Virus record (IMG/VR): IMGVR_UViG_3300025889_000432
Location: 1-35,097 of that record
DNA: 35,097 nt
DNA from: a virus
Strand: one strand, 5' to 3'
Position numbers and translations under genes: made by a program. A model generated the notes under the pieces. The model was not told the origin of the DNA. It ran no database searches and was given only the letters and a program-made list of their open reading frames with translations. This document shows positions 6,402-19,674 of the stretch, in pieces; positions within the stretch are counted from its first letter, which is position 1; each line of letters starts with the position of its first letter.

Positions 6402-7493
6402 ATGGCATCAACATTTTCAGATCTCGGTATAGAACTTATGGCAACTGGCGAAAACGCTGGTACATGGGGAGATAAAACAAATTCTAATTTAAACTTAATT
6501 CAACAAGCCGTAGCAGGTTATGAAGCTATTTCAATTGCAGGGGGTGTACAAACTACTCCTCTTGCAATGACAGATGCAACAATCTCACAGGCAAGAAACC
6601 AAGTAATAAAATTTACTGGGACAATTACAGGAAATCAAACAGTAACAATTCCAAATTCAATTGAAAAATCTTACATTATTATAAATGGCACATCGGGTTC
6701 ATTTACTGTAGAATTTAAAACAGTTAGTGGAACAGGTTACACTTTTGGTGCTACAGAAAAAGAAACTAGAATTTTAATTTCTGATGGTACTAATATTGTA
6801 GATTCAGGATTCTCATCAGTAGGTATTGATGCTGTAGTAGATGACACTTCACCTCAATTAGGTGGTAATTTAGATGCTAACGGAAATAATATTTTAATTG
6901 ATAATGGTAATTTCATCGGTGATGAAAATGGTTTAGAACAAATTAAATTTACTACAACTGCTTCCGCAGTAAACGAATTAACTGTAGTAAACGCAGCAAC
7001 AGGAAATGCTCCTAATATTCAAGCTACAGGTGGAGACAGTAATGTTGATTTAAATTTAACACCAAAAGGTATTGGTAGAACAACTTTTAACGGTCAAGGT
7101 AAAATTCAAAGTGTTGCAGAAAAAGTTACAACTGAAGCTACTGCTGCTACGGGAACTGTTAACTATGATGTTTTAACACAAGCAGTGTGGAATTTCACAA
7201 CTAATGCATCTGCTAACTGGACTTTAAACATTAGAGGTGATGGTTCAAACTCACTAAACTCTATAATGGATACAGGTGAATCAATTACAATAGCTCATAT
7301 CGTTGCTCAAGGTGGAACAGCTTATTACAATAACGCTGTTCAAATTGATGGATCATCTGTTACTCCAGAATATCAAGGTGGAGCAGCACCAACATCGGGT
7401 AACATAAATTCATTAGACACATATTCATATACAATTATTAAAACTGCAGATGCTACATTTACAGTGTTAGCATCACAAACACAGTTTGCGTAA
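6402..7493 (+). CDS. Tail fibre-like appendage protein (363 aa)
   Basis: The 363-residue product begins MASTFSDLGIELMATGENAG then TWGDKTNSNLNLIQQAVAGY. I recognise this N-terminal module from tail appendage proteins of marine phages, where it often precedes variable beta-structured regions. Repeating beta segments follow (TGTITGNQTVTIPNSIEKSY, IIINGTSGSFTVEF), then a DTSPQLGGNLDANGNNIL element common in phage fibre proteins, and a Ser/Thr/Asn-rich C-terminal part. No enzymatic motif (lyase, sialidase) is visible. It lies between other tail genes and is preceded by AAAGGT. Likely a trimeric fibre; its receptor is unknown. Confidence 0.75.
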   Translation: MASTFSDLGIELMATGENAGTWGDKTNSNLNLIQQAVAGYEAISIAGGVQTTPLAMTDATISQARNQVIKFTGTITGNQTVTIPNSIEKSYIIINGTSGSFTVEFKTVSGTGYTFGATEKETRILISDGTNIVDSGFSSVGIDAVVDDTSPQLGGNLDANGNNILIDNGNFIGDENGLEQIKFTTTASAVNELTVVNAATGNAPNIQATGGDSNVDLNLTPKGIGRTTFNGQGKIQSVAEKVTTEATAATGTVNYDVLTQAVWNFTTNASANWTLNIRGDGSNSLNSIMDTGESITIAHIVAQGGTAYYNNAVQIDGSSVTPEYQGGAAPTSGNINSLDTYSYTIIKTADATFTVLASQTQFA

Positions 7494-7511: not shown

Positions 7512-8387
7512 ATGCCACTAATTACAACAAGAGGATCTGCATCAGCAAGAGGATTTGGATTTGCAGGCGCAGGTAAGCCTTATGATATTCAATACTTAGT
7601 CGTAGCTGGTGGTGGATCAGGCGGGACTTTCTCATATGGAGGAGGCGGCGGAGCTGGCGGCGGTTTTAGAAACGTAACTACAAAATCTTTTGAAGTAGTT
7701 AGCGGACGAAACTATACAGTTACAGTCGGTAATGGTGGTGCAGGAAACACTACTTCTGACGACAAAGGAAATAAAGGTGTAGATTCTGTTTTTGATACAA
7801 TTACTTCAGCTGGAGGTGGCGGTGGTATAAATTTAGGAAACCCAGCACAATCAACAAACCCTAACCATCCTACGGGTTCAGGCTCAGGAGGATCAGGAGC
7901 AGGTTCAGCAACTTACTTTCAAGGCCCTTTCAGAGGTAGAGGTGGCGCAGGAAACATTCCACCAGTTTCTCCTCCACAAGGAAATGACGGCGGAGATGGT
8001 AGTGTTGGCGGAGGCCCTACAGCTCAAAGAGCGGGAGGTGGCGGCGGCGGAGCTGGCGGAGCTGGAACTGACGGTGCATCAAGTAATGGCGGAGACGGAG
8101 GAGCTGGATCAGCCTTTACAATTACAGGATCGAGCGTAACTTATTCTGCTGGAGGCTATGGAGTAATACAAGGCCAAAGCGCTGGCGGAGCAGGAACAGC
8201 AAATAGAGGAGACGCTACCCCAGCAGGAGGAGCAGGAGCTCCAACCCCAACAAGCAATGGCGGATCAGGAATAGTAGTAATTAGAAGATTAACTTCTGAT
8301 TCTAACTCAACATCAGGCAACTCAGTAACTACAGATGGATCTGATACGATCCACACATTTACTGGTGACGGGACATACACAGCATAA
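7512..8387 (+). CDS. Glycine-rich tail tip / putative receptor-binding protein (291 aa)
   Basis: The 291-residue product has a short N-terminus (MPLITTRGSASARGFGFAG), then YDIQYLVVAGGGSGG. A long stretch with many runs of three to six Gly follows (about 37-230), ending with GGSGIVVIRR and a HTFTGDGTYT strand. The YLVVAGGG start and GIVVIRR end mark a glycine-rich domain seen repeatedly in marine phage tail proteins. Such polyglycine helices resemble the packed sandwich of T-even gp38 adhesins, which recognise outer-membrane proteins. The family resemblance is by composition and flanking motifs only. GAAGGAG lies just before the ATG, indicating strong translation. As a host-range determinant it is expected to vary between strains. 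Confidence 0.72.
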   Translation: MPLITTRGSASARGFGFAGAGKPYDIQYLVVAGGGSGGTFSYGGGGGAGGGFRNVTTKSFEVVSGRNYTVTVGNGGAGNTTSDDKGNKGVDSVFDTITSAGGGGGINLGNPAQSTNPNHPTGSGSGGSGAGSATYFQGPFRGRGGAGNIPPVSPPQGNDGGDGSVGGGPTAQRAGGGGGGAGGAGTDGASSNGGDGGAGSAFTITGSSVTYSAGGYGVIQGQSAGGAGTANRGDATPAGGAGAPTPTSNGGSGIVVIRRLTSDSNSTSGNSVTTDGSDTIHTFTGDGTYTA

Positions 8388-8389
8388 CC

Positions 8390-8872
8390 ATGGCAAGCTT
8401 TGCAAAAATATCAGAAGAGAACGAAGTAGTTTCAGTACATTGTGTTGCTGATAATGATACGTCTCAAGATGGTGTAGAAAACGAATCAGTAGGACAAGCT
8501 TTTTTAGAAAAAATTCATAAATGGCCTGCACACTTATGGATAAAATGTTCTTATAACACTACTAAAGGTAACCACCTTTTAGGAGGCACACCTTACAGAG
8601 GTAACTATCCAGCCATAGGAGATGTATGGGATTCAGAAAATAATATATTTATAAAACCAAAACCTTACGCAAGTTGGACATTAGACACAACAACAGGTGT
8701 ATGGAATCCTCCAGTTGCAAAACCAGCAGCTCAAGAAGATGCTGCAAATAAAAGTCCTATAAGACATTATTCATGGAATGAAGAAAATCAACAATGGGAC
8801 GTAATTTCTCAAGATATATGGGTTGAATCTCTTAATGAATATGTGGATTCTAACGACCCCGCAGCACAATAA
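8390..8872 (+). CDS. Conserved tail-associated protein (160 aa)
   Basis: The 160-residue product starts MASFAKISEENEVVSVHCVA and has a middle with LWIKCSYNTT...YRGNYPAIGD...PKPYASWTL, then HYSWNEENQQWDVIS. This order (MAxFAxxxE start, a GNYxxIGDxWD segment, and paired SW-type repeats near the end) is common in cyanophage and pelagiphage proteins found beside tail fibre genes. Their role is unproven; assembly factor or small fibre component have been suggested. The SWxLDxxTxxW and SWNEENQQW elements look like two copies of a short Trp beta-hairpin. It is the last gene before the oxygenase array. Confidence 0.75.
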   Translation: MASFAKISEENEVVSVHCVADNDTSQDGVENESVGQAFLEKIHKWPAHLWIKCSYNTTKGNHLLGGTPYRGNYPAIGDVWDSENNIFIKPKPYASWTLDTTTGVWNPPVAKPAAQEDAANKSPIRHYSWNEENQQWDVISQDIWVESLNEYVDSNDPAAQ

Positions 8873-8918: not shown

Positions 8919-9485
8919 GTGATTGAAGATAATATAGAAATATTAAAATTACCTATTCCCAAACATTTAAATAATAATATTATGAATTATTTACAAAGAG
9001 AAGGTAAATGGAATTTTGTTTTTGATAAAGATAGAAATATATCTCCTAGTATGAAAGAAGTCGCTGATCCTGGACCATTAACAGATGCAGGTTTAGCTAG
9101 AATAACATTCTCACGAGGTTTAGAAGGAACTGATGTAGATAATTATTTGAACAATTTTGCAGATCTAGTTTATTTTCATTGTGTAGAAAGTTCAAAAAAA
9201 TTTAGAATTAAGAATATTTGTAGATATTATTGGAATCTTTATAGTAGAAGTTCCAAATGTTTGTGGCACACAGACCAACATAAAATCGATGAATATGTTT
9301 CTATAATATATAATTTACATGACAATGATGGTGGCACCGAATTTAAAAGTGGTAAAGTAAATGCTAATGAAGGAGAAGCTATAATATTTCCTAGTCATTA
9401 TTTACACAAAGGTATTGGACCAAAAAAATATAAATGGAGAATGAGCTTAAATATTGTTGCTCATCAAAGTTTTATTTATGCATAG
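8919..9485 (+). CDS. 2OG-Fe(II) oxygenase-like protein, array member 1
   Basis: I start at GTG 8919, the only possible start below an in-frame stop that preserves the N-terminal helix. The product is 188 residues. It shows a double-stranded beta-helix oxygenase pattern: WHTDQ with iron ligands His117 and Asp119, GGTEF, then IIFPSHYLHKG with the distal ligand His163 and 2-oxoglutarate-binding Arg174 in WRMSLNI. Such enzymes hydroxylate or demethylate substrates using O2 and 2-oxoglutarate. The substrate is unknown. No SD is evident before the GTG, so initiation may be weak. It opens a run of ten related genes and overlaps the next by 8 nt. Confidence 0.82.
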   Translation: MIEDNIEILKLPIPKHLNNNIMNYLQREGKWNFVFDKDRNISPSMKEVADPGPLTDAGLARITFSRGLEGTDVDNYLNNFADLVYFHCVESSKKFRIKNICRYYWNLYSRSSKCLWHTDQHKIDEYVSIIYNLHDNDGGTEFKSGKVNANEGEAIIFPSHYLHKGIGPKKYKWRMSLNIVAHQSFIYA

Positions 9486-10032
9486 AAAAATTTTATCTCA
9501 AGTAGATTTATATTACGGCGATGTAAAAATGCCTAAAAATTTTGAAATAGATAGAACAAAAATAAAAGAACAAATTATATATAGCTCTTTTATATCAGAT
9601 AACAGAAAAAATAATGATAAAAATGATAAACGTTACAATGATTTTATCATTGATGACACAACGATCTTATACCCATTGCATGTATACTTTTCAGACTTTA
9701 TAAATTTAAAATTTGATCTTAAATTAATTTTACAGGACAGCTGGGGAAACATTGTTTATCCAGGTCAACAAACTAATAATAGAAATACTTTAAATCCATT
9801 AAGTCTTGATTTATCTTCGGATTATACTTTGATTTACGGAGTTGATGTTTATGACAAAGAAAGTAAATTAATTATTGAGTATGATTCGAATCGTAGAGCT
9901 GGTAGATCTTGGACAATACCTATTTTTGATAATTCTTTTGTAATGTTTCCATCTACGTGTAGATATCATATAAGTCAAAATATGTCTAAAAACTTAAATA
10001 CGTTTTTAGGTTTTACTTTTAATTACGTATAA
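9478..10032 (+). CDS. Degenerate 2OG-Fe(II) oxygenase-fold protein, array member 2 (likely pseudoenzyme)
   Basis: The ATG at 9478 overlaps the end of member 1 by 8 nt, giving 184 residues. The frame is intact. The C-terminal half follows the PF13759-like oxygenase pattern: ILQDSWGNIVYPGQQ, then YTLIYGVDVYDKESK, SFVMFPSTCRYHIS (distal His164) and FLGFTFNY. But where the HxD/HxH iron motif should be, the sequence is TNNRNTLNPLS (about 99-109), and the Arg expected after the distal His is absent. The enzyme is probably unable to bind iron and could act as a binding or partner subunit. An unrelated beta protein cannot be excluded, but position and matching strands favour a decayed paralogue. Confidence 0.6.
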   Translation: MHRKILSQVDLYYGDVKMPKNFEIDRTKIKEQIIYSSFISDNRKNNDKNDKRYNDFIIDDTTILYPLHVYFSDFINLKFDLKLILQDSWGNIVYPGQQTNNRNTLNPLSLDLSSDYTLIYGVDVYDKESKLIIEYDSNRRAGRSWTIPIFDNSFVMFPSTCRYHISQNMSKNLNTFLGFTFNYV

Positions 10033-10631
10033 TGATTCTTAAAAACTATTATTACTATTACACTAGTGCAATACCAATTAGTATTTGCGATAGAATAATA
10101 AAAGAGGGTAAAAAGATGAAAAAAGAAAGAGCTTTAATAGGTGACCCTAAGAAAAAATTATCTAATGTTGAAATCTCCAATATCAAAAAAGTTAGAGAAT
10201 CTCATGTGGTTTGGTTTGATAAGCCTTGGATTTATAAATTAGTTCAACCTTACGTTTACGATGCTAATGCTAGAGCTGGCTGGAATTTTGAGTGGGCATG
10301 GACAGATCCTCCGCAGTTTACTATTTATAAAAAAAATCAACATTACACATGGCATGCTGATCAATTTCAAGATTTAGATTCAAAAAATCGTATGAGAAAA
10401 ATTTCTATGACAATAAATTTATCAGATCCCTCTGAATATGAGGGAGGTAATTTAGAATTTGATTATAGAAATAGAACAGATCGATCAGATTGTATTGTGC
10501 CATGTAAAGAAATAATGCCTAAAGGATCTATAGCTTTATTCCCAAGTTTTGTTTTTCATAGAGTAACACCAGTAACAAAAGGAACAAGATACAGTTTAGT
10601 TGTTTGGAATTCAGGTAGTCCTTATAAATGA
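10032..10631 (+). CDS. PKHD-type 2OG-Fe(II) prolyl-4-hydroxylase-like enzyme, array member 3
   Basis: This 199-residue protein is the most typical oxygenase of the array. It has QFTIYKKNQHYTWHADQ with His108 and Asp110, RKISMTINLSDPSEYEGGNL, GSIALFPSFVFHRVTPV with His176, and GTRYSLVVW with Arg186. That is the PKHD-type/prolyl 4-hydroxylase alpha-subunit pattern (PF13640), known from many cyanophages and bacteria. The family hydroxylates proline or other side chains; the target here is unknown. It shares one base with member 2 and four with member 4, so expression is translationally coupled. No signal peptide; cytoplasmic. Confidence 0.9.
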   Translation: MILKNYYYYYTSAIPISICDRIIKEGKKMKKERALIGDPKKKLSNVEISNIKKVRESHVVWFDKPWIYKLVQPYVYDANARAGWNFEWAWTDPPQFTIYKKNQHYTWHADQFQDLDSKNRMRKISMTINLSDPSEYEGGNLEFDYRNRTDRSDCIVPCKEIMPKGSIALFPSFVFHRVTPVTKGTRYSLVVWNSGSPYK

Positions 10632-11269
10632 TAAATATAATTAACATTAAGAGCGATGTGAGAAGAACTCCTTTTGCACCAGAATGGAATTATTTTATAG
10701 TTGAAGATTATCTAAGTGAAATAGATCTTAAAAAGTTATGCTCATTTTTGCTAAAAAAAGAAAAAAGTATTCTTAAATTAAAACAAACAAATGATGGATT
10801 TACTGGTTTAACAAATCATACAACCACAAGACATGGTAACTACAATATTTTCTCTTTTAAAAATAAAGAAATAGATAAACTAAAAAATAAAATAATTGAT
10901 ACACATAATACATTTATTACAGCTTTGAATATTAACCCAATAAAAAATTTATATATAAATGGTTGGTTAAATGTTATGAGAAAAAATGAGTATGTAAAAC
11001 CTCATGCACATTCTTTTAATGCTGATACATATTTAGGTGGCCATTTTTGTGTAAGTTGTAAAAATACATCTACTTATTATATAAATCCTGTAAATCAAAT
11101 AAATGATCCTGAATTTTTTGAAAGTAAAAACGTACCAGGTAAATTAACTTTATTTAATAATTATGTTCCACATTATACAAATAAACACAAAGCAGAAACG
11201 GTAAGAATTACTATTGCTTTTGATTTAAATTATGCAAGAAAAAAAGAGTGTGATATTAAAATTATATGA
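10628..11269 (+). CDS. 2OG-Fe(II) oxygenase-like protein with HxH motif, array member 4
   Basis: The 213-residue product has an N-terminal helical part (EWNYFIVEDYLSEIDLKKLC) and a C-terminal beta core. Visible are NGWLNVMRKNEYVKPHAHSF (His126, His128), a GGHFCV strand, LTLFNNYVPHYT with distal His182, and VRITIAFDL with Arg193. The pattern fits the putative 2OG-Fe(II) oxygenase family PF13759, in which HxH stands where most relatives have HxD. Whether the second His binds iron is not known to me. Overlaps of four bases on both sides (ATGA) tie it to the array. The substrate is unknown. Confidence 0.8.
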   Translation: MINIINIKSDVRRTPFAPEWNYFIVEDYLSEIDLKKLCSFLLKKEKSILKLKQTNDGFTGLTNHTTTRHGNYNIFSFKNKEIDKLKNKIIDTHNTFITALNINPIKNLYINGWLNVMRKNEYVKPHAHSFNADTYLGGHFCVSCKNTSTYYINPVNQINDPEFFESKNVPGKLTLFNNYVPHYTNKHKAETVRITIAFDLNYARKKECDIKII

Positions 11270-11886
11270 GCTTTAAAAAAAATAAATATTATGTTTGTAG
11301 AAAAGTAGTTTCAAAAGATATTATTAAATTTTTATATGATTATTTATTAATGAAAAGAGAGTTATGTAAATCTTTACATAAATATAATTTAGTTAGTATG
11401 TTCGACACAAGTTTTGGAATTATTGGTAGTGATGGTCAAATAGATCAAAATAATGTTTATTCTTGTTATGGTGATTTGGCTATTGATGTTTTATTAAAAA
11501 AAACAATGTCTCATGTAGAAAATATAATTAAATTAAAATTGCAACCTAACTATTCCTATTTAAGAATTTACGAAGAAGGTAATGAACTTAAACCACATAT
11601 TGATCGTATGGCTTGTGAGTTTTCTACGACCTTAAACATAGGTGGGGATCCATGGTCAATATATTTAAAAGATAAAAAAAATAAGAATATTGAAGTAAAA
11701 TTAAAACCTGGTGACATGCTTATTTACAAAGGGCAAGAATTAACACACTGGAGAAAGAAGTTTGAAGGAGATATGTGTATTCAAGTATTTTTACATTATA
11801 ACCAAGTAGGAGTTGGTCGTTTGTACGATGGAAGACCTTGTTTAGGATCCGCTGCTGACACCAGGCTAGATGATAAAAAAATTTAA
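11266..11886 (+). CDS. 2OG-Fe(II) oxygenase-like protein, array member 5
   Basis: The 206-residue product has YSYLRIYEEGNELKPHIDRM (His111, Asp113), CEFSTTLNIGGDPWSIYL, then LKPGDMLIYKGQELTHWR with distal His161, and CIQVFLHYNQ at the end of the fold. This matches a cyanophage-type oxygenase subgroup I recognise by the PHxDRxxCExSxTxN and GDMxIYxGxxLxHWR motifs. In that subgroup Gln (here 173) stands near where the 2OG-binding Arg is in others. The extra C-terminal tail (GRPCLGSAADTRLDD) overlaps the next gene by 17 nt. Substrate unknown; likely a cytoplasmic hydroxylase. Confidence 0.84.
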   Translation: MSFKKNKYYVCRKVVSKDIIKFLYDYLLMKRELCKSLHKYNLVSMFDTSFGIIGSDGQIDQNNVYSCYGDLAIDVLLKKTMSHVENIIKLKLQPNYSYLRIYEEGNELKPHIDRMACEFSTTLNIGGDPWSIYLKDKKNKNIEVKLKPGDMLIYKGQELTHWRKKFEGDMCIQVFLHYNQVGVGRLYDGRPCLGSAADTRLDDKKI

Positions 11887-12403
11887 AAATTACTTAACAA
11901 AGGATGATAAAGCATTTATTAAAGAAACTTTATTAGGTCCTAATTTTTCTTATTATTTAAATGATCACACAGTAAAAACCGATTCAATTTTAGATGCTAA
12001 AAATTACTTTTTTAGTCACTCAATAATACTTAGACCTGAAGACCGACAACCTAATATGCCTTTTAACTCAGAATATTATAAATTTTTTATGGATTTAGTG
12101 ACAAGAGTAATTAAAAAATTAAAAGTTCAACCTAAAGAATTTTATAGAATGGCGTTAAATTTAACCTTTGCAAACGGTATGGTAGATTGTCCTGAACATA
12201 GAGATCATGACTATGAACATAAAAACCTTATTTTATATCTTAATGATTGTGATAAAAAAGCAAAAACAATTATTAAAGAAGACAGCAAAAAAATTCAGAT
12301 TACACCTACATTCAATACAGGTGTATATTTTGAAGATAATTTACATTCTATGATAAATCCTATATATGGTGTAAGATTAATTTTGGTAACAACTTTTATA
12401 TAA
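11870..12403 (+). CDS. 2OG-Fe(II) oxygenase-like protein, array member 6
   Basis: The ATG at 11870 lies inside the end of member 5. The 177-residue product shows MALNLTFANGMVDCPEHRDH with likely ligands His110 and Asp112, HKNLILYLND (117-126), TFNTGVYFEDNLHSM with distal His159, and YGVRLILVTTF with Arg169. The spacing of metal motif, the ILYLND strand and the distal His matches a short oxygenase type found in cyanophages. A neighbouring second HD pair (113-114) makes the exact ligand pair uncertain. The N-terminal half is helical and unrelated in sequence to its neighbours, so this is a divergent paralogue rather than a recent copy. Confidence 0.76.
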   Translation: MIKKFKNYLTKDDKAFIKETLLGPNFSYYLNDHTVKTDSILDAKNYFFSHSIILRPEDRQPNMPFNSEYYKFFMDLVTRVIKKLKVQPKEFYRMALNLTFANGMVDCPEHRDHDYEHKNLILYLNDCDKKAKTIIKEDSKKIQITPTFNTGVYFEDNLHSMINPIYGVRLILVTTFI

Positions 12404-12894
12404 TGAAAAGTAATCATAAAATAGTAGATAATTTTTTACCTGAAAAACAATTTAAACCAATAGAAGATTGGTTAATGGGTAACTCATTTGAATGGTATGC
12501 AGGTGCTGATGGTGTGTCTCAACAAGGACTAGATGATGGAATTTACCATACTCACACTTTTTTTGATCAAATGATGAGAACGTCAAAAAAATGGGATTTA
12601 ATAGCACCTATAATTCATAAATTAAAAATCAAAGCAATGATTAGGTGTAAAGCTAATTCTTATCCACAAACGCATAAATTAATTGAACATGGTAAACATA
12701 TTGATTTTAATTTCAAACATAAATCTTTTCTGTTAACAATTAATACTTGTAATGGATTTACAAGATTACCTGATGGAACAAAAGTAGCTAGTGTAAGAAA
12801 TAGAGGTATTTTTTTTGAAGGTTATAAACCACATAATAGTACAACCTGTACAGATGTGTATAGAAGAATAAATATAAACTTTAGTTATTTTTAA
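12403..12894 (+). CDS. Short 2OG-Fe(II) oxygenase-like protein, array member 7
   Basis: At 163 residues this is the shortest member. It has LIEHGKHIDFNFKHKSF (His99, Asp101), LLTINTCNGFTRLPDGTKV, NRGIFFEGYKPHNSTTCT (distal His144) and DVYRRININFSYF with Arg154/155. It resembles members 1 and 6 in order of motifs and closely resembles short oxygenases of marine myoviruses. The N-terminus (NHKIVDNFLPEKQFKPIEDW) has the usual oxygenase opening in which a protein leaves its surface through a conserved FLPE. It shares one base with member 6 and is followed by a 10-nt gap with a strong SD. Confidence 0.78.
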   Translation: MKSNHKIVDNFLPEKQFKPIEDWLMGNSFEWYAGADGVSQQGLDDGIYHTHTFFDQMMRTSKKWDLIAPIIHKLKIKAMIRCKANSYPQTHKLIEHGKHIDFNFKHKSFLLTINTCNGFTRLPDGTKVASVRNRGIFFEGYKPHNSTTCTDVYRRININFSYF

Positions 12895-12900
12895 AGGAGG
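12893..12900 (+). promoter_or_regulatory. Strong ribosome-binding site before array member 8
   Basis: AAAGGAGG lies four bases before ATG 12905. It is the only strong SD within the array; the other members depend on overlapping stop/start junctions. It may set a second, independent translation level for members 8-10 and the following gene. Confidence 0.65.
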
Positions 12901-12904
12901 AAAT

Positions 12905-13561
12905 ATGAAAAAAACAAATGGTAAAGGATTAATTTTATTTTCAGAGGGAGTATTTAAAGTTGAGAATGTAGCTTTAAATCATAAGAAGATTTTGAAAGAA
13001 TTACAAAAATTAAAATTTAGAGATATAAAAGCTGTTGATGGTTTAGAAACTAACAAAGTAAAAAATAGTCCACAGATAACAGAGTCAGTGAGAATTTTAG
13101 ACCACATGGAATCAGGCGACATTATAGATAAAGAAATAACAAAACATGTTCAAGTCTCAATAAATAATTTTTTTGGTTATGATGTAGGATGCAAAATAAT
13201 AAATACTTGGGGAACAAAATCACCACCTGGATCTGTAAATAATTTTCATACTCATAGTAATTATTGGTTAAGTGCTGTTTACTATCCACATGGTTTAATA
13301 AAAGACAAATTTAGAATCATGTTTGAATCAGGTAAACACAATGCATTTGCACCAAAGGTTTCTCAATATAATAATATAAATATGAATTCAGTTTTATTTG
13401 AAACATTAGAAGGTGACTTATTAATATTCCCCGCTCATTTACGACACATGATTGCACCAAATTTAACATCTAAAAACAGGTACTCTATAGCTTTTAATAT
13501 ATTACCTGAAGGTAATATTGGTGAAGGAGATAGTCATCTTGTATATCAATTTACAAAATGA
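12905..13561 (+). CDS. 2OG-Fe(II) oxygenase-like protein with HxH motif, array member 8
   Basis: This 218-residue protein, the longest of the array, has TWGTKSPPGSVNNFHTHSNY with His115 and His117, WLSAVYYPHG, LEGDLLIFPAHLRHMIAP with distal His181, and RYSIAFNILPEG with Arg192. HTHSNYWLSAVYY and IFPAHLRHMIAPN are typical of PF13759-type putative 2OG-Fe(II) oxygenases. The N-terminus (KGLILFSEGVFKVENV) is beta-like and distinct from members 4 and 9. It has the best RBS in the array and overlaps member 9 by four bases. Reaction unknown, presumably hydroxylation of a protein or small molecule. Confidence 0.85.
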   Translation: MKKTNGKGLILFSEGVFKVENVALNHKKILKELQKLKFRDIKAVDGLETNKVKNSPQITESVRILDHMESGDIIDKEITKHVQVSINNFFGYDVGCKIINTWGTKSPPGSVNNFHTHSNYWLSAVYYPHGLIKDKFRIMFESGKHNAFAPKVSQYNNINMNSVLFETLEGDLLIFPAHLRHMIAPNLTSKNRYSIAFNILPEGNIGEGDSHLVYQFTK

Positions 13562-14127
13562 TTAAGTATTACTTTCCATATTTTGGGCCTTTAATTATAC
13601 AAACAAATTTAATTAAAGATCAAATTAAACAAGTAAAAAAACTGTGTAATAAAAATGTTAGTAACAGAAGAGATTTAGCAGGACAAATAAAAGATGAATT
13701 TTTAATAGACTATAATAAATTTGATGCGATAGTTAGGCCACAAATAGAAACTTACAAAATAGCATACAATAGATTTTACGGATCAAAATTAGATGGTATG
13801 AGAACTACAACAGCTTGGGTAAATTATATGAAAGCGGGTGAATACAATCCTCCACACATTCATGATAATTGTAGATTTTCATGTGTATTGTATCTACAAG
13901 TTCCAAAAGAAATTGCAAAAGAAAATAAAGAATATGAAGGAACAAGTGGAGGACCTGGTACAATAGAATTTACTTATGGAGAGACACAACCTATGGATTG
14001 TAACACTGGTTGTACTTATGTGCCTAAAGTTGGTGAGATGTTTATATTTCCTCGTTTTGTAAGACATAGTGTTGCTCCCTTCCAATCAAAAGTAACTAGA
14101 GTATCTGTTGCAGCTAACTTTGAATGA
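13558..14127 (+). CDS. 2OG-Fe(II) oxygenase-like protein with HxH motif, array member 9
   Basis: The 189-residue product has TTTAWVNYMKAGEYNPPHIH with His100 and His102, a SCVLYLQVPKEI strand, an inserted Gly-rich loop (about 127-137), VGEMFIFPRFVRHSVAPF with distal His170, and RVSVAANFE with Arg181. GEYNPPHxH and IFPxxxRHxVAPF motifs are those of the phage-encoded PF13759-type proteins common in cyanophages and pelagiphages. Start and stop both overlap neighbours by four bases. It is the clearest HxH member. The metal-binding status of the second His is untested. Confidence 0.86.
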   Translation: MIKYYFPYFGPLIIQTNLIKDQIKQVKKLCNKNVSNRRDLAGQIKDEFLIDYNKFDAIVRPQIETYKIAYNRFYGSKLDGMRTTTAWVNYMKAGEYNPPHIHDNCRFSCVLYLQVPKEIAKENKEYEGTSGGPGTIEFTYGETQPMDCNTGCTYVPKVGEMFIFPRFVRHSVAPFQSKVTRVSVAANFE

Positions 14128-14630
14128 TAACTAAAATATCTGTAAACAAAGAAATCAAATCTTTTAAAAAAGATTTAATTAATGAATGTATAAAAAAAAG
14201 ACTTGTAAATCCTTCGGTGCATGGAGTTAATAATTATTTTGTAGATAGTAAACACACAGAAAAGTTATATACAATATTAATAAGATCCTGTGCTAAACAC
14301 CTAAACACTTTTACAATTAGTGATCACAATTTTAAATTATGGTGTTATTATTCAGATAAAAAATTTAATGAAGGTAACTGGCATAATCATATTGATACAG
14401 CTACTATCAATGCAGTTTTGTATTTAAAAGTTCCGAAAAATAATAAAGGGATAGATTTTAGGATGAATAAAACTATATATAACCTTAAGCCAAAATCAGG
14501 TGACTTAATTATATTCCCAGATTTTTTAGATCACTATCCATACCCCTCTTTTGATCAGCCTAGGATTAGTTTAAACTTGGAAATAAAATGTAATGAACAT
14601 AGTAGACAAATTTTCAAAGTATTTAACTGA
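14124..14630 (+). CDS. 2OG-Fe(II) oxygenase-like protein, array member 10
   Basis: The last member has 168 residues: FNEGNWHNHIDTATINAVLY with His87, His89 and Asp91, SGDLIIFPDFLDHYPYPS with distal His137, and QPRISLNLEI with Arg147. The HNHID sequence can be read as HxH (87-89) or HxD (89-91), so it bridges the two classes of the array. The N-terminal helix (ISVNKEIKSFKKDLINECIK) is Lys-rich. Its last 38 nt overlap the start of the next gene, which does not look like an oxygenase. Substrate unknown. Confidence 0.82.
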   Translation: MITKISVNKEIKSFKKDLINECIKKRLVNPSVHGVNNYFVDSKHTEKLYTILIRSCAKHLNTFTISDHNFKLWCYYSDKKFNEGNWHNHIDTATINAVLYLKVPKNNKGIDFRMNKTIYNLKPKSGDLIIFPDFLDHYPYPSFDQPRISLNLEIKCNEHSRQIFKVFN

Positions 14631-14922
14631 GATTAAATACCCTAAAGAAAAAACCTCTTGGAATATCGCAGGTATGATAAAAGGTAGTAATGCTTTTTAT
14701 AGATTTGATGTTAGACAAATGTTTGAAATGCCCAATGGAACACCAGCGCAGAGTGGTCGTCTTGATACGAAAGCTGAAAAGATGGTTCTTGAAGGTGAAA
14801 AAGAATGGATGATTATAGACTTAGAAGAACTTCATCAGTATATACGTAGGGAAAAGAAGAAAAACGTATACGTAAATGATTTGATCTCTGATCTAGAATG
14901 GACAACTTTCTTACCCAAATAG
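14593..14922 (+). CDS. Conserved phage protein of unknown function (109 aa)
   Basis: This 109-residue protein has NIAGMIKGSNAFYRFDVRQM then FEMPNGTPAQSGRLDTKAEK and WMIIDLEELHQYIRREKK. The pattern GRLxTKAEKxVLExExxWxIID with a following helical HQYI segment is familiar from marine phage proteins located near tail genes. It shows no catalytic residues I can name. It starts 38 nt inside the last oxygenase gene, so it belongs to the same transcription unit. A promoter-like sequence for the following gene lies just after its stop. Probably an assembly or regulatory factor, but this is a guess. Confidence 0.7.
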   Translation: MNIVDKFSKYLTEIKYPKEKTSWNIAGMIKGSNAFYRFDVRQMFEMPNGTPAQSGRLDTKAEKMVLEGEKEWMIIDLEELHQYIRREKKKNVYVNDLISDLEWTTFLPK

Positions 14923-14940: not shown

Positions 14941-17121
14941 ATGCCTTTAGCAAAAGTTAATATAGCACCAGGATTTGATAAACAGTCTACACCAGCAGAC
15001 GCAGAAGGTCGTTGGGTGGATGGTGACAATGTGCGTTTTAGATATGGTGAACCAGAAAAGATAGGTGGCTGGTCTGCTCTATGTGGTGATAAAATAGTTG
15101 GTGCTGCAAGACAACAACATGTTTGGGCTGATACTTCAGGAAAAAGATATGCAGCGATAGGTACAAATAAAGTTTTAACAATTTATTACGAAGGTGTTCT
15201 TTACGATATAACACCTTTAGAAACAGATAATTTCTCTACAGGTGCAAACATAACAACGACTAATGCATCAGCTATAGTTACAATTACTACAAGCTCTGCA
15301 CACAATCTTGAAGTAGGAGAATTGACTACCTTCGCTAATGCAGGATCTTTTAATGCGGGACAAACAGGTTACACAGCGTCAGATTTTGATGATAAAGTTT
15401 TCGAAGTACAAACAACACCATCATTTACAACATTTACAATTTTAATGCCTTCAGTAGAATCAGGTTCAGGAACAACGAACAACGGAACATTAGATGTTAA
15501 TCCTTATCAACCTGTCGGTCCTTTAAATCAAACTTATGGGTATGGTTGGGGTACGTATTTATTTGGCGGAAGAACTATCGCTCAAACCACAACAACAATG
15601 AATAACAGCGGTAACATGTTAGTAGGCGATACCAGTGTAATTCTTACAGCTACATCTTCATTCCCAGCAACGGGTTCAATAAGAATTGGATCTGAAGATA
15701 TGTCTTACACTGCAAATAACACAGGTACAAATACACTTAGTGGAATTACTAGAGGTATTAATGGAACGACTGCAGTTGAACATACAGATGGAGCAACAGT
15801 AACTGATATATCTAGCTACATAGGATGGGGTGACGCTTCATCTTCAAGCACAGTAACTATTGATCCTGCAATGTGGTCTTTAGAAAACTTTGGTGATATT
15901 TTAATAGCAACAATTCATAATGGAAAAACATTTACCTGGAACCCCTCAGCAGGTAACGCATTAAATACGAGAGCAATCATTGGCACAGGTATGCCAACAG
16001 CATCAGTAATGACTATAGTATCAGACAGAGACAGGCATTTATTCCATTTAGGTACAGAAACTACAATTGGAACTTCAACAACACAAGATAAAATGTTTAT
16101 AAGATTTTCTGATCAAGAAAGTTTGAGTGATTATCAACCAACTTCAACAAATACTGCTGGTACTTTTAGACTTGATGATGGCACAAGAATAATAGGAGCC
16201 ATAAAAGGTAAAGATTATATTTTAGTTCTTACCGACACAGCTGCATATGAAATGCAATTTGTTGGACCACCATTTACTTTTTCAATTAGGAAAGTCGGTT
16301 CTAACAACGGACTATTAGGGCAAAACGCAGGTGTGTTTGCAAACGGTGCGGTATATTGGATGGGTAAAACAGGAGGGTTCTATGTTTATGATGGTACTGT
16401 AAAATCACTACCTTGTTTAGTAGAAGACTTTGTTTTTACAACTGACGGTAATAATCCAGGTATAAATTATAACTCAGGTCAATTAGTTTATGCAGGTATA
16501 AATGAATTATACTCTGAAATAAATTGGTTTTATTGTTCTGCTGGTTCTTTAGTTGTTGATAGAGTTGTAACTTATAATTTTGACGAACAAGTTTGGACGA
16601 CAGGAACTCTTGATAGAACAACTTGGGTGGGTTCAACAGTTTATGAACAACCTTATGCTACAGATTACAATGCTTCAGACACACCAACTTTTCCAGTAGT
16701 AAATGGTGTTTCTAATGGGGCATCTATTTATTATGAACATGAAGTAGGTGTAAATCAATTAAATGGTGATGGATCTTCAACAGCAATTACATCTTTTATA
16801 AAATCAGGAGAGTTTGATTTAAATGGTAATGCAGGTGTTCCAGGAGATGGAGAATTTTTAATGAGTATTAAAAGGTTTCTACCAGACTTTAAACGTATAA
16901 GTGGTAACGCAAAAGTAACTATATTTTTAAATGAGTTTCCTCAAGGAACAACTTCAACATCAAGTCCTTTAGGACCTTTTACAATAAGCTCAAGCACATC
17001 TAAAGTTGATACAAGAGCAAGAGCAAGGTTAGCTGCTGTTCAAATTGAAAATGAAAATTTAGATGAGAGCTGGAGATACGGTACGTTTAGATTTGATGTT
17101 AGAGTGGATGGTAGAAGATAA
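14941..17121 (+). CDS. P22 gp10-like DNA stabilisation / tail hub protein (726 aa)
   Basis: The 726-residue product starts MPLAKVNIAPGFDKQSTPAD, then GRWVDGDNVRFRYGEPEKIG, a conserved opening of a large podovirus protein in marine phages. Residues about 100-190 and 205-285 look like inserted beta modules; the second carries SIRIGSEDMSYTAN and GITRGINGTTAVEHTDGATV, a small repeat domain found in virion proteins. The rest (about 290-560) has repeated beta blades (DILIATIHNGKTFTWNP, YILVLTDTAAYEMQF, AVYWMGKTGGFYVYDG), consistent with the beta-propeller of P22 gp10-type proteins that close the connector. A C-terminal beta part follows. Equivalence to gp10 is by pattern only. No SD precedes the ATG; see the promoter at 14927. 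Confidence 0.72.
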   Translation: MPLAKVNIAPGFDKQSTPADAEGRWVDGDNVRFRYGEPEKIGGWSALCGDKIVGAARQQHVWADTSGKRYAAIGTNKVLTIYYEGVLYDITPLETDNFSTGANITTTNASAIVTITTSSAHNLEVGELTTFANAGSFNAGQTGYTASDFDDKVFEVQTTPSFTTFTILMPSVESGSGTTNNGTLDVNPYQPVGPLNQTYGYGWGTYLFGGRTIAQTTTTMNNSGNMLVGDTSVILTATSSFPATGSIRIGSEDMSYTANNTGTNTLSGITRGINGTTAVEHTDGATVTDISSYIGWGDASSSSTVTIDPAMWSLENFGDILIATIHNGKTFTWNPSAGNALNTRAIIGTGMPTASVMTIVSDRDRHLFHLGTETTIGTSTTQDKMFIRFSDQESLSDYQPTSTNTAGTFRLDDGTRIIGAIKGKDYILVLTDTAAYEMQFVGPPFTFSIRKVGSNNGLLGQNAGVFANGAVYWMGKTGGFYVYDGTVKSLPCLVEDFVFTTDGNNPGINYNSGQLVYAGINELYSEINWFYCSAGSLVVDRVVTYNFDEQVWTTGTLDRTTWVGSTVYEQPYATDYNASDTPTFPVVNGVSNGASIYYEHEVGVNQLNGDGSSTAITSFIKSGEFDLNGNAGVPGDGEFLMSIKRFLPDFKRISGNAKVTIFLNEFPQGTTSTSSPLGPFTISSSTSKVDTRARARLAAVQIENENLDESWRYGTFRFDVRVDGRR

Positions 17122-17763: not shown

Positions 17764-17937
17764 ATGACCGTATATCAAAAAGTTAAATGTAAAACTAAAA
17801 CTATCTATAGAAGTATTAAGACAGGTGAAAGATACGAGACAGAAGAAGCTTTTTTAGCTGAGCATCCTAAAGAAGATTTAGCTACTGACGTTGAAGTTCA
17901 AGTTCCTGATCTTCCTATATTTGGTAGCACACAATGA
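17764..17937 (+). CDS. Small acidic-tailed protein (57 aa)
   Basis: The 57-residue product has a basic start (MTVYQKVKCKTKTIYRSIKT) and an acidic end (AEHPKEDLATDVEVQVPDLP). No domain is recognised. It follows a 19-nt spacer and its stop overlaps the glycosyltransferase start by four bases. No SD is obvious. Function unknown; its coupling suggests it is translated together with the glycosyltransferase. Confidence 0.55.
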   Translation: MTVYQKVKCKTKTIYRSIKTGERYETEEAFLAEHPKEDLATDVEVQVPDLPIFGSTQ

Positions 17938-18869
17938 ATCCATTAGGTGGAACAGAACTACAGCTTGGTTTTCTGCAAAAGTATGTTTCTAAAGAATTAT
18001 TAGATAAGTTTCAAATATGCACTTCAGTTCCACACAAAGTTCCTTTATCAAAAGATAAAATAAATATTCTTTGGCAAAAAATGGCTCCTGATCAACCTCA
18101 CTTTCAAGAGTTCTTTAAAGATCCCGAGCAAATAAAACAATATGATTATTATGTTTTTAATAGCCATTGGAACTATGAACAGTTTAGAAAAACTTTTTCA
18201 TTACCTGAGCATTTATGTACGGTAATAAAAAACGGAATTCCTGATATTAAAAAAAGAGATCCTAAACTTAAAAAAGAAAAAATAAAATTAATATATCAAC
18301 CAACACCTTGGAGAGGCCTATCTGTCTTATTAGGTGCTATGCAGTTAGTAAATAATAAAAACATAACTTTAGATGTGTATAGTAGTACACAGGTTTATGG
18401 AGATGAATTTAAGGAAAAAAATGATCATTCATATCAAGACTTATATGATCAATGTGAAAAGTTACCTAATGTAAATTACATAGGATATAAACCTAATGAC
18501 TATATTTTAGAAAACTTACATACCTATGATGCATTTGTTTATCCTAATATTTGGGAAGAGACTTCTTGTATATCAGCAATTGAAGCTTTAGCTTGTGGAC
18601 TGTATGTAGCAACAACGGACAACGGAGCACTTTATGAAACTTGTTCTGAGTTTCCAATTTATATACCTATGGACAAAGACTGGAAAAATTTAGCTATGCA
18701 ATTTGCAGCTGTAATAGATCAAATACCTGGACAATTGAATGAGGTTGGGTGTCATAATCATTTAGAGTTTCAACAAAAATTCTTTAATCATTTTTATAAT
18801 TGGAAAGTTATTGCAGGACACTGGAATGGATTTCTACAAGGAGTTTTAACAAATGCAAGATCCAAGTAA
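17934..18869 (+). CDS. GT-B glycosyltransferase (GT4-like, 311 aa)
   Basis: The 311-residue product has the GGTE loop at 5-8, a Rossmann-like C-terminal half with IKLIYQPTPWRGLSVLLGAM (117-136), NVNYIGYKPNDYILENL, and WEETSCISAIEALACG, which holds an E-x7-E motif (Glu209, Glu217) typical of GT4 retaining enzymes. Such proteins move a sugar from a nucleotide donor to an acceptor. The protein starts with the GGTE motif almost immediately, so the first beta strand present in most relatives is missing; an in-frame TAG at 17925 prevents extension. It overlaps a GT-A enzyme by 17 nt, so the two likely act in sequence. Acceptor unknown: tail fibre, host surface or DNA are options. Confidence 0.82.
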   Translation: MNPLGGTELQLGFLQKYVSKELLDKFQICTSVPHKVPLSKDKINILWQKMAPDQPHFQEFFKDPEQIKQYDYYVFNSHWNYEQFRKTFSLPEHLCTVIKNGIPDIKKRDPKLKKEKIKLIYQPTPWRGLSVLLGAMQLVNNKNITLDVYSSTQVYGDEFKEKNDHSYQDLYDQCEKLPNVNYIGYKPNDYILENLHTYDAFVYPNIWEETSCISAIEALACGLYVATTDNGALYETCSEFPIYIPMDKDWKNLAMQFAAVIDQIPGQLNEVGCHNHLEFQQKFFNHFYNWKVIAGHWNGFLQGVLTNARSK

Positions 18870-19674
18870 ACCAATTTGGTTTGGTAAAAACGCAAAAACA
18901 GAACCTAAAACAAAAAGTAAGTATAGATTTTTTGTAGGTACTCCTGTTCATAGCGATGTATCCATACATTATTTTCAAGCTTGTCTAGAGTTTCAAAAAC
19001 AATGTATGAAGAAAGATGTATTAACTTGTTTTCAAGTAATGAAATCTTCTTTAGTTACTCAAGGTAGAAATTTATGTGTGTCTAGTTTTATGGAGACAGA
19101 TAGTACACATTTGTTATTTATTGATTCAGACATAGATTTTGATAGTGAATCTATATTTAAAATGGCAGACACAAACAAAGATGTAATATCAGTGCCTTAC
19201 CCACTTAAGACTTTCAACTGGGAAAAAGGTTTTAATAAGGTAAAAGCAGGCATAATTAAAAATGCTGAAGATCTTAAATATAAAGGCTTCTATCAATATC
19301 CTATGAAAGTAAAAGACGAACAGAATATAAAGATGGATAAAAATGGAGTTATTGAAGTTACTCATTCACCTACTGGATGTATGCTTATAAAAAGAGAAGT
19401 CATTGAAAAGATGATTAAAGCTTATCCTGAAAAAGAGATAATACAAAAAACTATTATTAACGGTAAAATGGAAACAAAACCATATTTATATAATCTTTTT
19501 GACACTGATTTTGATCCTGAGACTAAAACTTATTTGGGAGAAGACTTTGCTTTTTGTAAGAGATGGAAAAAAATAGGTGGTAAATGTCATGCTCTTATAA
19601 CAGAGAAAATAAGTCATATAGGAGAACACCAATATAGAGGGTCTTTTTCCGATGAGTTGTCAAAGACCTCATAA
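18853..19674 (+). CDS. GT-A glycosyltransferase-like protein with DxD motif (273 aa)
   Basis: The 273-residue product has YRFFVGTPVHSDVSIHYFQA, then VTQGRNLCVSSFMETDS and HLLFIDSDIDFD, in which Asp91/Asp93 form the DxD that binds a metal-nucleotide sugar. Later elements are THSPTGCMLIKREVI and YLGEDFAFCKRWKKIGGKC, whose ED is a plausible catalytic region, and KISHIGEHQ. This is a GT-A fold of the kind seen in phages and Golgi-type mannosyltransferases; I cannot name the donor. It overlaps the GT-B enzyme by 17 nt, which suggests coordinated sugar transfer. A hairpin (19640-19668) covers its last codons. Confidence 0.8.
   Translation: MQDPSKPIWFGKNAKTEPKTKSKYRFFVGTPVHSDVSIHYFQACLEFQKQCMKKDVLTCFQVMKSSLVTQGRNLCVSSFMETDSTHLLFIDSDIDFDSESIFKMADTNKDVISVPYPLKTFNWEKGFNKVKAGIIKNAEDLKYKGFYQYPMKVKDEQNIKMDKNGVIEVTHSPTGCMLIKREVIEKMIKAYPEKEIIQKTIINGKMETKPYLYNLFDTDFDPETKTYLGEDFAFCKRWKKIGGKCHALITEKISHIGEHQYRGSFSDELSKTS

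Follow-up and report, generated by a model that had tools for sequence, protein, structure and literature searches.

We analysed a 35,097-nucleotide stretch of viral DNA (IMG/VR record IMGVR_UViG_3300025889_000432; the whole stretch is called the window below), in which ten consecutive open reading frames (ORFs) of 163-218 amino acids, named ox1 to ox10, run head to tail on the plus strand from 8919 to 14630. The original prediction, made from the sequence alone, had described ten 2-oxoglutarate (2OG)-Fe(II) oxygenase genes forming one translationally coupled unit between the tail-fibre genes and a stabilisation gene, and the ORFs, their sizes and their location were found as described. With ox2 starting at the ATG at 9478, eight of the nine junctions are overlaps of 1-17 nt and the remaining one is a 10-nt gap, and the block does look translationally coupled; an alternative TTG start at 9454 would make the ox1/ox2 overlap 32 nt. 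Upstream of the array and on the same strand lie a Gly-rich gene (7512-8387; Pfam Gly_rich_2, PF21722, 7e-18), whose product we call a tail-fibre tip or adhesin-like protein from its Pfam family and its position, and g8390 (8390-8872), which encodes a small protein of phrog_7759 between the tip and the array. Comparison with related loci revealed that the tip, g8390 and the array are one cassette, the parts of which diverge together, whereas the fibre and stabilisation genes on either side do not follow them.

Judging from their sequences, nine members of the array, ox1 and ox3 to ox10, look like working hydroxylating enzymes. Alignments revealed that these nine keep the iron triad HxD/E/H...H, and eight of them have an Arg for the 2OG carboxylate where it is normally found, while none was identified at that position in ox5. 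The prediction that every gene ends in HxD or HxH followed by a distal His, usually with an Arg, therefore holds for these members but fails for ox2, which has no HxD/H, a Tyr for the distal His and an Asn for the 2OG Arg. Hidden Markov model searches, proposed as a check, gave a mixed outcome: all ten proteins match PHROG families, and five pass the Pfam 2OG cut-off, namely ox3 (PF13640, 6e-17) and, with PF13759, ox4 (2e-7), ox8 (4e-14), ox9 (9e-18) and ox10 (2e-6). Profile-profile comparison with enlarged alignments, smaller ones being too weak, grouped ox2, ox3, ox7, ox8 and ox9 together through links of 94-99.9%, negative controls being close to 0. The double-stranded beta-helix fold of the Fe(II)/2OG superfamily was recovered in every member but ox5, for which the evidence is weak, on the basis of AlphaFold2 (AF2) models and Foldseek for ox2 and ox7 (both modelled proteins have the 2OG-oxygenase fold, as had been anticipated), Pfam for ox3, ox4 and ox8 to ox10, and phrog_274 homology to ox7 for ox1 and ox6. 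Individually, ox1 (8919-9485; H-T-D...H...R; phrog_274, 1e-15), ox6 (11870-12403) and ox7 (12403-12894) are predicted oxygenases of the phrog_274 type. The product of ox3 (10032-10631; phrog_61) resembles PKHD-type and prolyl hydroxylases (PiuC, 9e-8). Those of ox4 (10628-11269; H-A-H...H...R) and ox10 (14124-14630; H-N-H...H...R) are of the PF13759 type, and those of ox8 (12905-13561; H-T-H...H...R) and ox9 (13558-14127; H-I-H...H...R) are PF13759/TIGR02466-like.

The remaining member, ox2 (9478-10032), is not an oxygenase but a conserved pseudo-oxygenase. The AF2 model of ox2 (pLDDT 85.6, pTM 0.84; built on 10 sequences) matched 2OG oxygenases in Foldseek (3bvc, 2e-8; vCPH; PHD2), its structural neighbours include TlxI and vaccinia C16, both short of cofactor residues, and its profile is linked to those of ox8 and ox9 at 94-97%. 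The triad and the Arg are absent from the window ox2 and, in an alignment of 53 rows, from the 51 relatives clustering with it, the one other row (L017) being an active outgroup; because the iron triad is missing throughout, we file ox2 as a pseudo-enzyme with an oxygenase fold. In place of the catalytic residues the family widely conserves another motif (DPVDLRNSPD-Y/F-T...YGV, DNRRKGRSW and FPST). The ratio of nonsynonymous to synonymous substitution (dN/dS) was low, with a median of 0.20 and a maximum of 0.33 over 60 pairs, indicating that the gene is under purifying selection and not decaying. Relatives of ox2 are encoded by at least 567 IMG/VR stretches and by one of 84,980 prokaryote genomes; the latter copy lies on a phage-sized contig of 59.5 kb from a Pelagibacteraceae single-cell genome (AG-422-I02; L259), which carries ox2, ox3 and ox5 and supports a SAR11 host for this phage type. 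We also surveyed 178 nonredundant loci, mostly short metagenomic contigs, fetched by similarity to the oxygenases or neighbouring genes (the best 80 matches per seed, not a random sample), with broad family assignment for ox3 and ox8. By profile assignment these loci hold 110 ox2 genes, of which 103 stand first in their own oxygenase run, and an ox3-type gene comes next in 94 of the 101 cases with a visible next oxygenase gene.

Two families of the array carry database labels that do not fit. The only match of ox1, ox6 and ox7 is phrog_274, labelled 'DNA endonuclease V', and no endonuclease Pfam match was found for any of the three. The ox7 family alignment (25 sequences) shows the order H99-x-D101...H144...R155, in which H99 never varies and the other three residues hardly do, and the AF2 model built on these sequences (pLDDT 91.9, pTM 0.88) has PHD2 and bacterial P4H prolyl hydroxylases as its best PDB neighbours (Foldseek E ~1e-7, probability 1.00). 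The conserved triad and these neighbours indicate that the endonuclease label is wrong and that the modelled fold is prolyl-hydroxylase-like. Similarly, ox5 (11266-11886; phrog_2954) is called 'ferrochelatase' in PHROGs and GenBank, a label that is probably wrong: no match to the ferrochelatase Pfam model was found at E <= 1 in any of ten family members, in all of which H111-x-D113...H161 is invariant. A 2OG oxygenase is the probable, not proven, identity of ox5, whose 2OG-binding residue is uncertain. Its matches to AlkB-like PF13532 (E 0.016) and NgTet1 (E 0.27) are weak and not significant, that to trimethyllysine dioxygenase (0.032) is weak, and so is its profile link to ox7 (27.7%). Both labels matter, since phrog_274 is no endonuclease and phrog_2954, probably no ferrochelatase, serves as a seasonal ferrochelatase marker among auxiliary metabolic genes (AMGs) (PMC11561400).

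The linkage of the array to the tip and g8390 was evident when g8390 rather than an oxygenase was used as the seed: a 2OG-family gene followed within 150 nt in 74 of 77 loci (ox2 in 68 of them), and a Gly-rich gene lay directly upstream in 74 of 75. Among the fetched loci, the next 2OG-family gene was within 100 nt of g8390 in 108 of 124. The order tip-g8390-array recurs in the cyanophages S-RSM4 and S-SM1, and in HTVC008M the tip and g8390 face the array. In the 35 loci with all markers, the oxygenases proved to be jointly inherited with g8390 and, more weakly, with the tip. Spearman correlations of pairwise similarity with g8390 were 0.80 for ox2, 0.45 for ox3 and 0.65 for ox5, and those with the tip were 0.27-0.33, as against 0.02-0.12 with the stabilisation gene and -0.02 to 0.12 with the fibre gene at 6402; the latter two genes correlated with each other at 0.61. 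Partial Mantel tests for g8390 and the tip gave P values of 0.0005-0.02. Single loci show the same pattern. L009 and L010 share most nearby genes with the window at 64-95% identity (stabilisation gene 84% and 81%), most of the flanking ones at 72-95%; the tip, g8390 and most array members are not detectably shared with it. In L191, the genes from the tip to ox8 are 51-68% identical to those of the window (ox1, in the same place, 68%), as against 31-48% for the fibre and backbone genes nearby. This sister array has the gene order of the window but lacks ox4, ox9 and ox10, so members can be gained or lost one at a time, which fits the originally suggested multi-substrate set or reservoir of specificities. 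The position of the fibre gene 6402 varies, being upstream of ox5 in 61 loci but downstream of it in 35, so the cassette has moved relative to this gene, and a seven-oxygenase array in L017 (3066-7628) on the strand opposite to the stabilisation gene indicates that the array can be inverted. The tip itself has a Pro-rich motif, PPVSPPQGN, that is conserved in many phages; a loose form occurs in 149 of the 258 Gly-rich ORFs of the fetched loci.

The array is no assembly artefact, because three further IMG/VR contigs match it at 99.9-99.99% identity, one (3300025769_001720) over the whole block and two (3300022183_001818 and 3300006029_000613) over parts of it. Recent tandem duplication was likewise ruled out, as had been predicted: the best match within the block, ox8-ox9, reaches only E ~2e-9, and for most members much closer relatives exist in other phages. 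The array has a lower guanine-cytosine (GC) content (27%) than its flanks (34-37%), but its third-position GC is similar to that of the neighbouring genes, so the low GC was not taken as a sign of foreign origin and the difference is mostly one of amino-acid usage. A scan for promoters and terminators gave no more sites than shuffled sequence. In length, the array is not unique but extends a trend already known, of which it is among the longest cases. The longest run per survey locus was mostly 2-5 genes, and runs of 8 (two loci), 9 (two), 10 (two, the window included) and 11 (one) were found, with no decoy matches at the threshold; since the loci were fetched by similarity, this distribution is no census. 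The synteny check proposed for arrays of five or more thus gave examples in other marine contigs, and a block of ten is unusual in degree only.

Downstream, a small conserved ORF (14593-14922) overlaps the array end by 38 nt and is kept, at 52-55% identity, in L014, L017 and L191. It is followed by the backbone gene for the virion stabilisation protein (14941-17121; phrog_3287), which marks the edge of the cassette and diverges separately from it; both genes are on the plus strand. The stabilisation protein is 58% identical to that of HTVC023P and 52% to that of 023Pt_psg01, and from this identity and the synteny with HTVC023P we assign the source virus to the HTVC023P-type podoviruses, pelagiphages of SAR11, whose hosts are the most abundant bacteria of the ocean. 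Further away, a glycosyltransferase and a second glycosyltransferase-like gene (17934-19674) are conserved with the backbone, making a route of hydroxylation and then glycosylation conceivable. At the other side, the ORF at 233-877 matches phrog_3704, 'ferredoxin' (2e-71), and no Pfam family at E <= 0.01, so this label may be wrong too.

2OG oxygenases are among the commonest marine-phage genes of unproven role and are usually explained as metabolic helpers. The co-inheritance with the tip points to a more specific role, and what causes it we can only infer: it suggests that the enzymes chemically decorate the host-recognising part of the virion. We favour, at a probability of about 0.45, a model in which the array supplies the enzymes of a receptor-recognition cassette that can be exchanged; these would hydroxylate the tip, with ox2 as their non-catalytic partner. 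The nine catalytic members would hydroxylate side chains of the tip, of g8390 or of both (or of another virion protein of the module) after translation, each with its own site preference; ox2 would serve as a subunit or scaffold without catalysis of its own, its most likely partner being the adjacent ox3, as TlxI is for TlxJ; and the chemistry of the host-recognising surface would change whenever a single member is gained or lost. In support of this model, ox3 and ox7 resemble protein hydroxylases, and ox2 keeps its fold under selection (dN/dS ~0.2) despite having lost the triad, mostly stands first and mostly has ox3 next to it. If the oxygenases do belong to such a cassette, their function is directly testable through hydroxylated residues of the tip. 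By extension, and more tentatively, unrelated marine phage families may use exchangeable cassettes of protein hydroxylases, led in podoviruses by a dead paralogue as partner, to diversify the tip, so that receptor specificity would be combinatorial and made by enzymes.

Several observations weigh against the model of tip hydroxylation. Physical linkage in one recombination unit can by itself give joint inheritance, with no functional tie. Pairs of g8390 and tip occur without adjacent oxygenases in Bellamy, Melnitz and CRP-143, so the enzymes are not obligatory and are best regarded as an extra component of a fibre module that is also found on its own. The Methylophilales phage Melnitz (L336) has two Gly-rich/g8390 pairs close together and no oxygenases, which suggests a general partnership between g8390 and the tip. 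In HTVC023P-type phages, oxygenases are also found outside the cassette (HTVC023P gp71; L009). The motif PPVSPPQGN was considered as a substrate and rejected, its association with ox2 (P 0.11) and ox3 (P 0.13) not being significant. The virion proteome of cyanophage S-SCSM1 has been measured, and the available part of that report mentions no hydroxylation (PMC9602691). The open-licence literature yielded no paper linking phage 2OG oxygenases to fibres.

The same co-inheritance data would also arise if the oxygenases altered host envelope molecules or the receptor late in infection, for superinfection exclusion or to free virions from debris, since enzymes and tip would then have to match the same host receptor. 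The array does adjoin receptor-recognition genes, and the two glycosyltransferase-like genes lie downstream; however, these belong to the backbone rather than the cassette, nothing was seen that targets the products to the envelope, and ox3 and ox7 are structurally closest to protein hydroxylases, leaving host-surface modification rather unlikely. We judge about equally doubtful that the fibre module is a recombination hot spot that gathers oxygenases of unrelated roles, acting on DNA, RNA, protein or metabolites, with no common target. Gain and loss of single genes, as in L191, and the variable content of the same slot fit such hitchhiking, whereas the tip-g8390-ox2-ox3 order conserved in many phages and the near-exclusive occupation of the slot by one superfamily in these podoviruses do not.

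Less probable still is auxiliary metabolism, in which turnover of 2-oxoglutarate and iron tunes the nitrogen or carbon metabolism of the host; proposals of this kind have been published for cyanophages and pelagiphages (PMC3037559; PMC9602691; PMC12753301). It leaves unexplained ten divergent members with a conserved dead first member, as well as their co-divergence with g8390 and the tip but not with the backbone, and the support for haem or iron metabolism from a 'ferrochelatase' partner is undercut by the Pfam result on ox5. A shield for phage DNA or RNA through AlkB/TET-like modification or repair is very improbable: it draws on the resemblance of ox5 to PF13532 and NgTet1, which falls short of significance, while the remaining members resemble protein hydroxylases and the endonuclease label of phrog_274 is mistaken.

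Proteins that have a 2OG-oxygenase fold, have lost cofactor residues and act through a protein partner offer an analogy to the proposed role of ox2 under tip hydroxylation, not a family to which it belongs. The fungal TlxI, reported to lack the 2OG Arg, raises the kcat/Km of TlxJ from 0.02 to 1.63 per min per uM (PMC12141560), and the N-terminal domain of vaccinia C16 binds PHD2 (PMC9674614). Beyond the Arg, ox2 has also lost the entire triad, and the biology is unrelated. Among phages, no description of contiguous 2OG-oxygenase arrays was found in the open-licence literature searched, and HTVC008M has five 2OG genes in a row. The closest likeness in layout is in S-RSM4 (SRSM4_132-143) and S-SM1 (SSM1_049-061), where a Gly-rich tip and a g8390 homologue are followed by nine (within SRSM4_132-142) and eight (within SSM1_051-060) 2OG-oxygenase genes in one operon. 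These phages, however, are myoviruses, their arrays are broken by a weak-4Fe-4S protein and small ORFs, ox2 was not detected in them, and the genes are annotated as separate functions. The protein with the weak Fer4 match (L110:11941-12642 and L333:10412-11113) could be a radical enzyme or act as an electron donor. In S-RIM44, the array includes a JmjC_2 protein (PF08007, 5e-19; L113:16035-16757) and a DUF6445-like 'minor coat protein' (L113:14102-14866), and further array members may be mislabelled too. The cyanophage S-SCSM1 likewise has a very large divergent set, 24 2OG oxygenases in a single phage, but its genome is 229 kb, the members are scattered over several places, and no cassette was analysed there (PMC9602691). 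Closest by phage group and gene families are the HTVC023P-type pelagiphages of Wittmers et al. (2022), in which eight non-orthologous 2OG oxygenases, commonly close to one or two 'ferrochelatases', are described as 'partner AMGs' (PMC9599517). There the oxygenases are close 'although not adjacent' and ferrochelatase is treated as a separate enzyme. The present findings differ in the contiguity of up to 11 genes, the doubtful ferrochelatase label, the pseudo-oxygenase ox2 and the tie between the block and the fibre tip. Large oxygenase sets were thus already known, and what is new here is the linkage of an oxygenase array to the tip and g8390.

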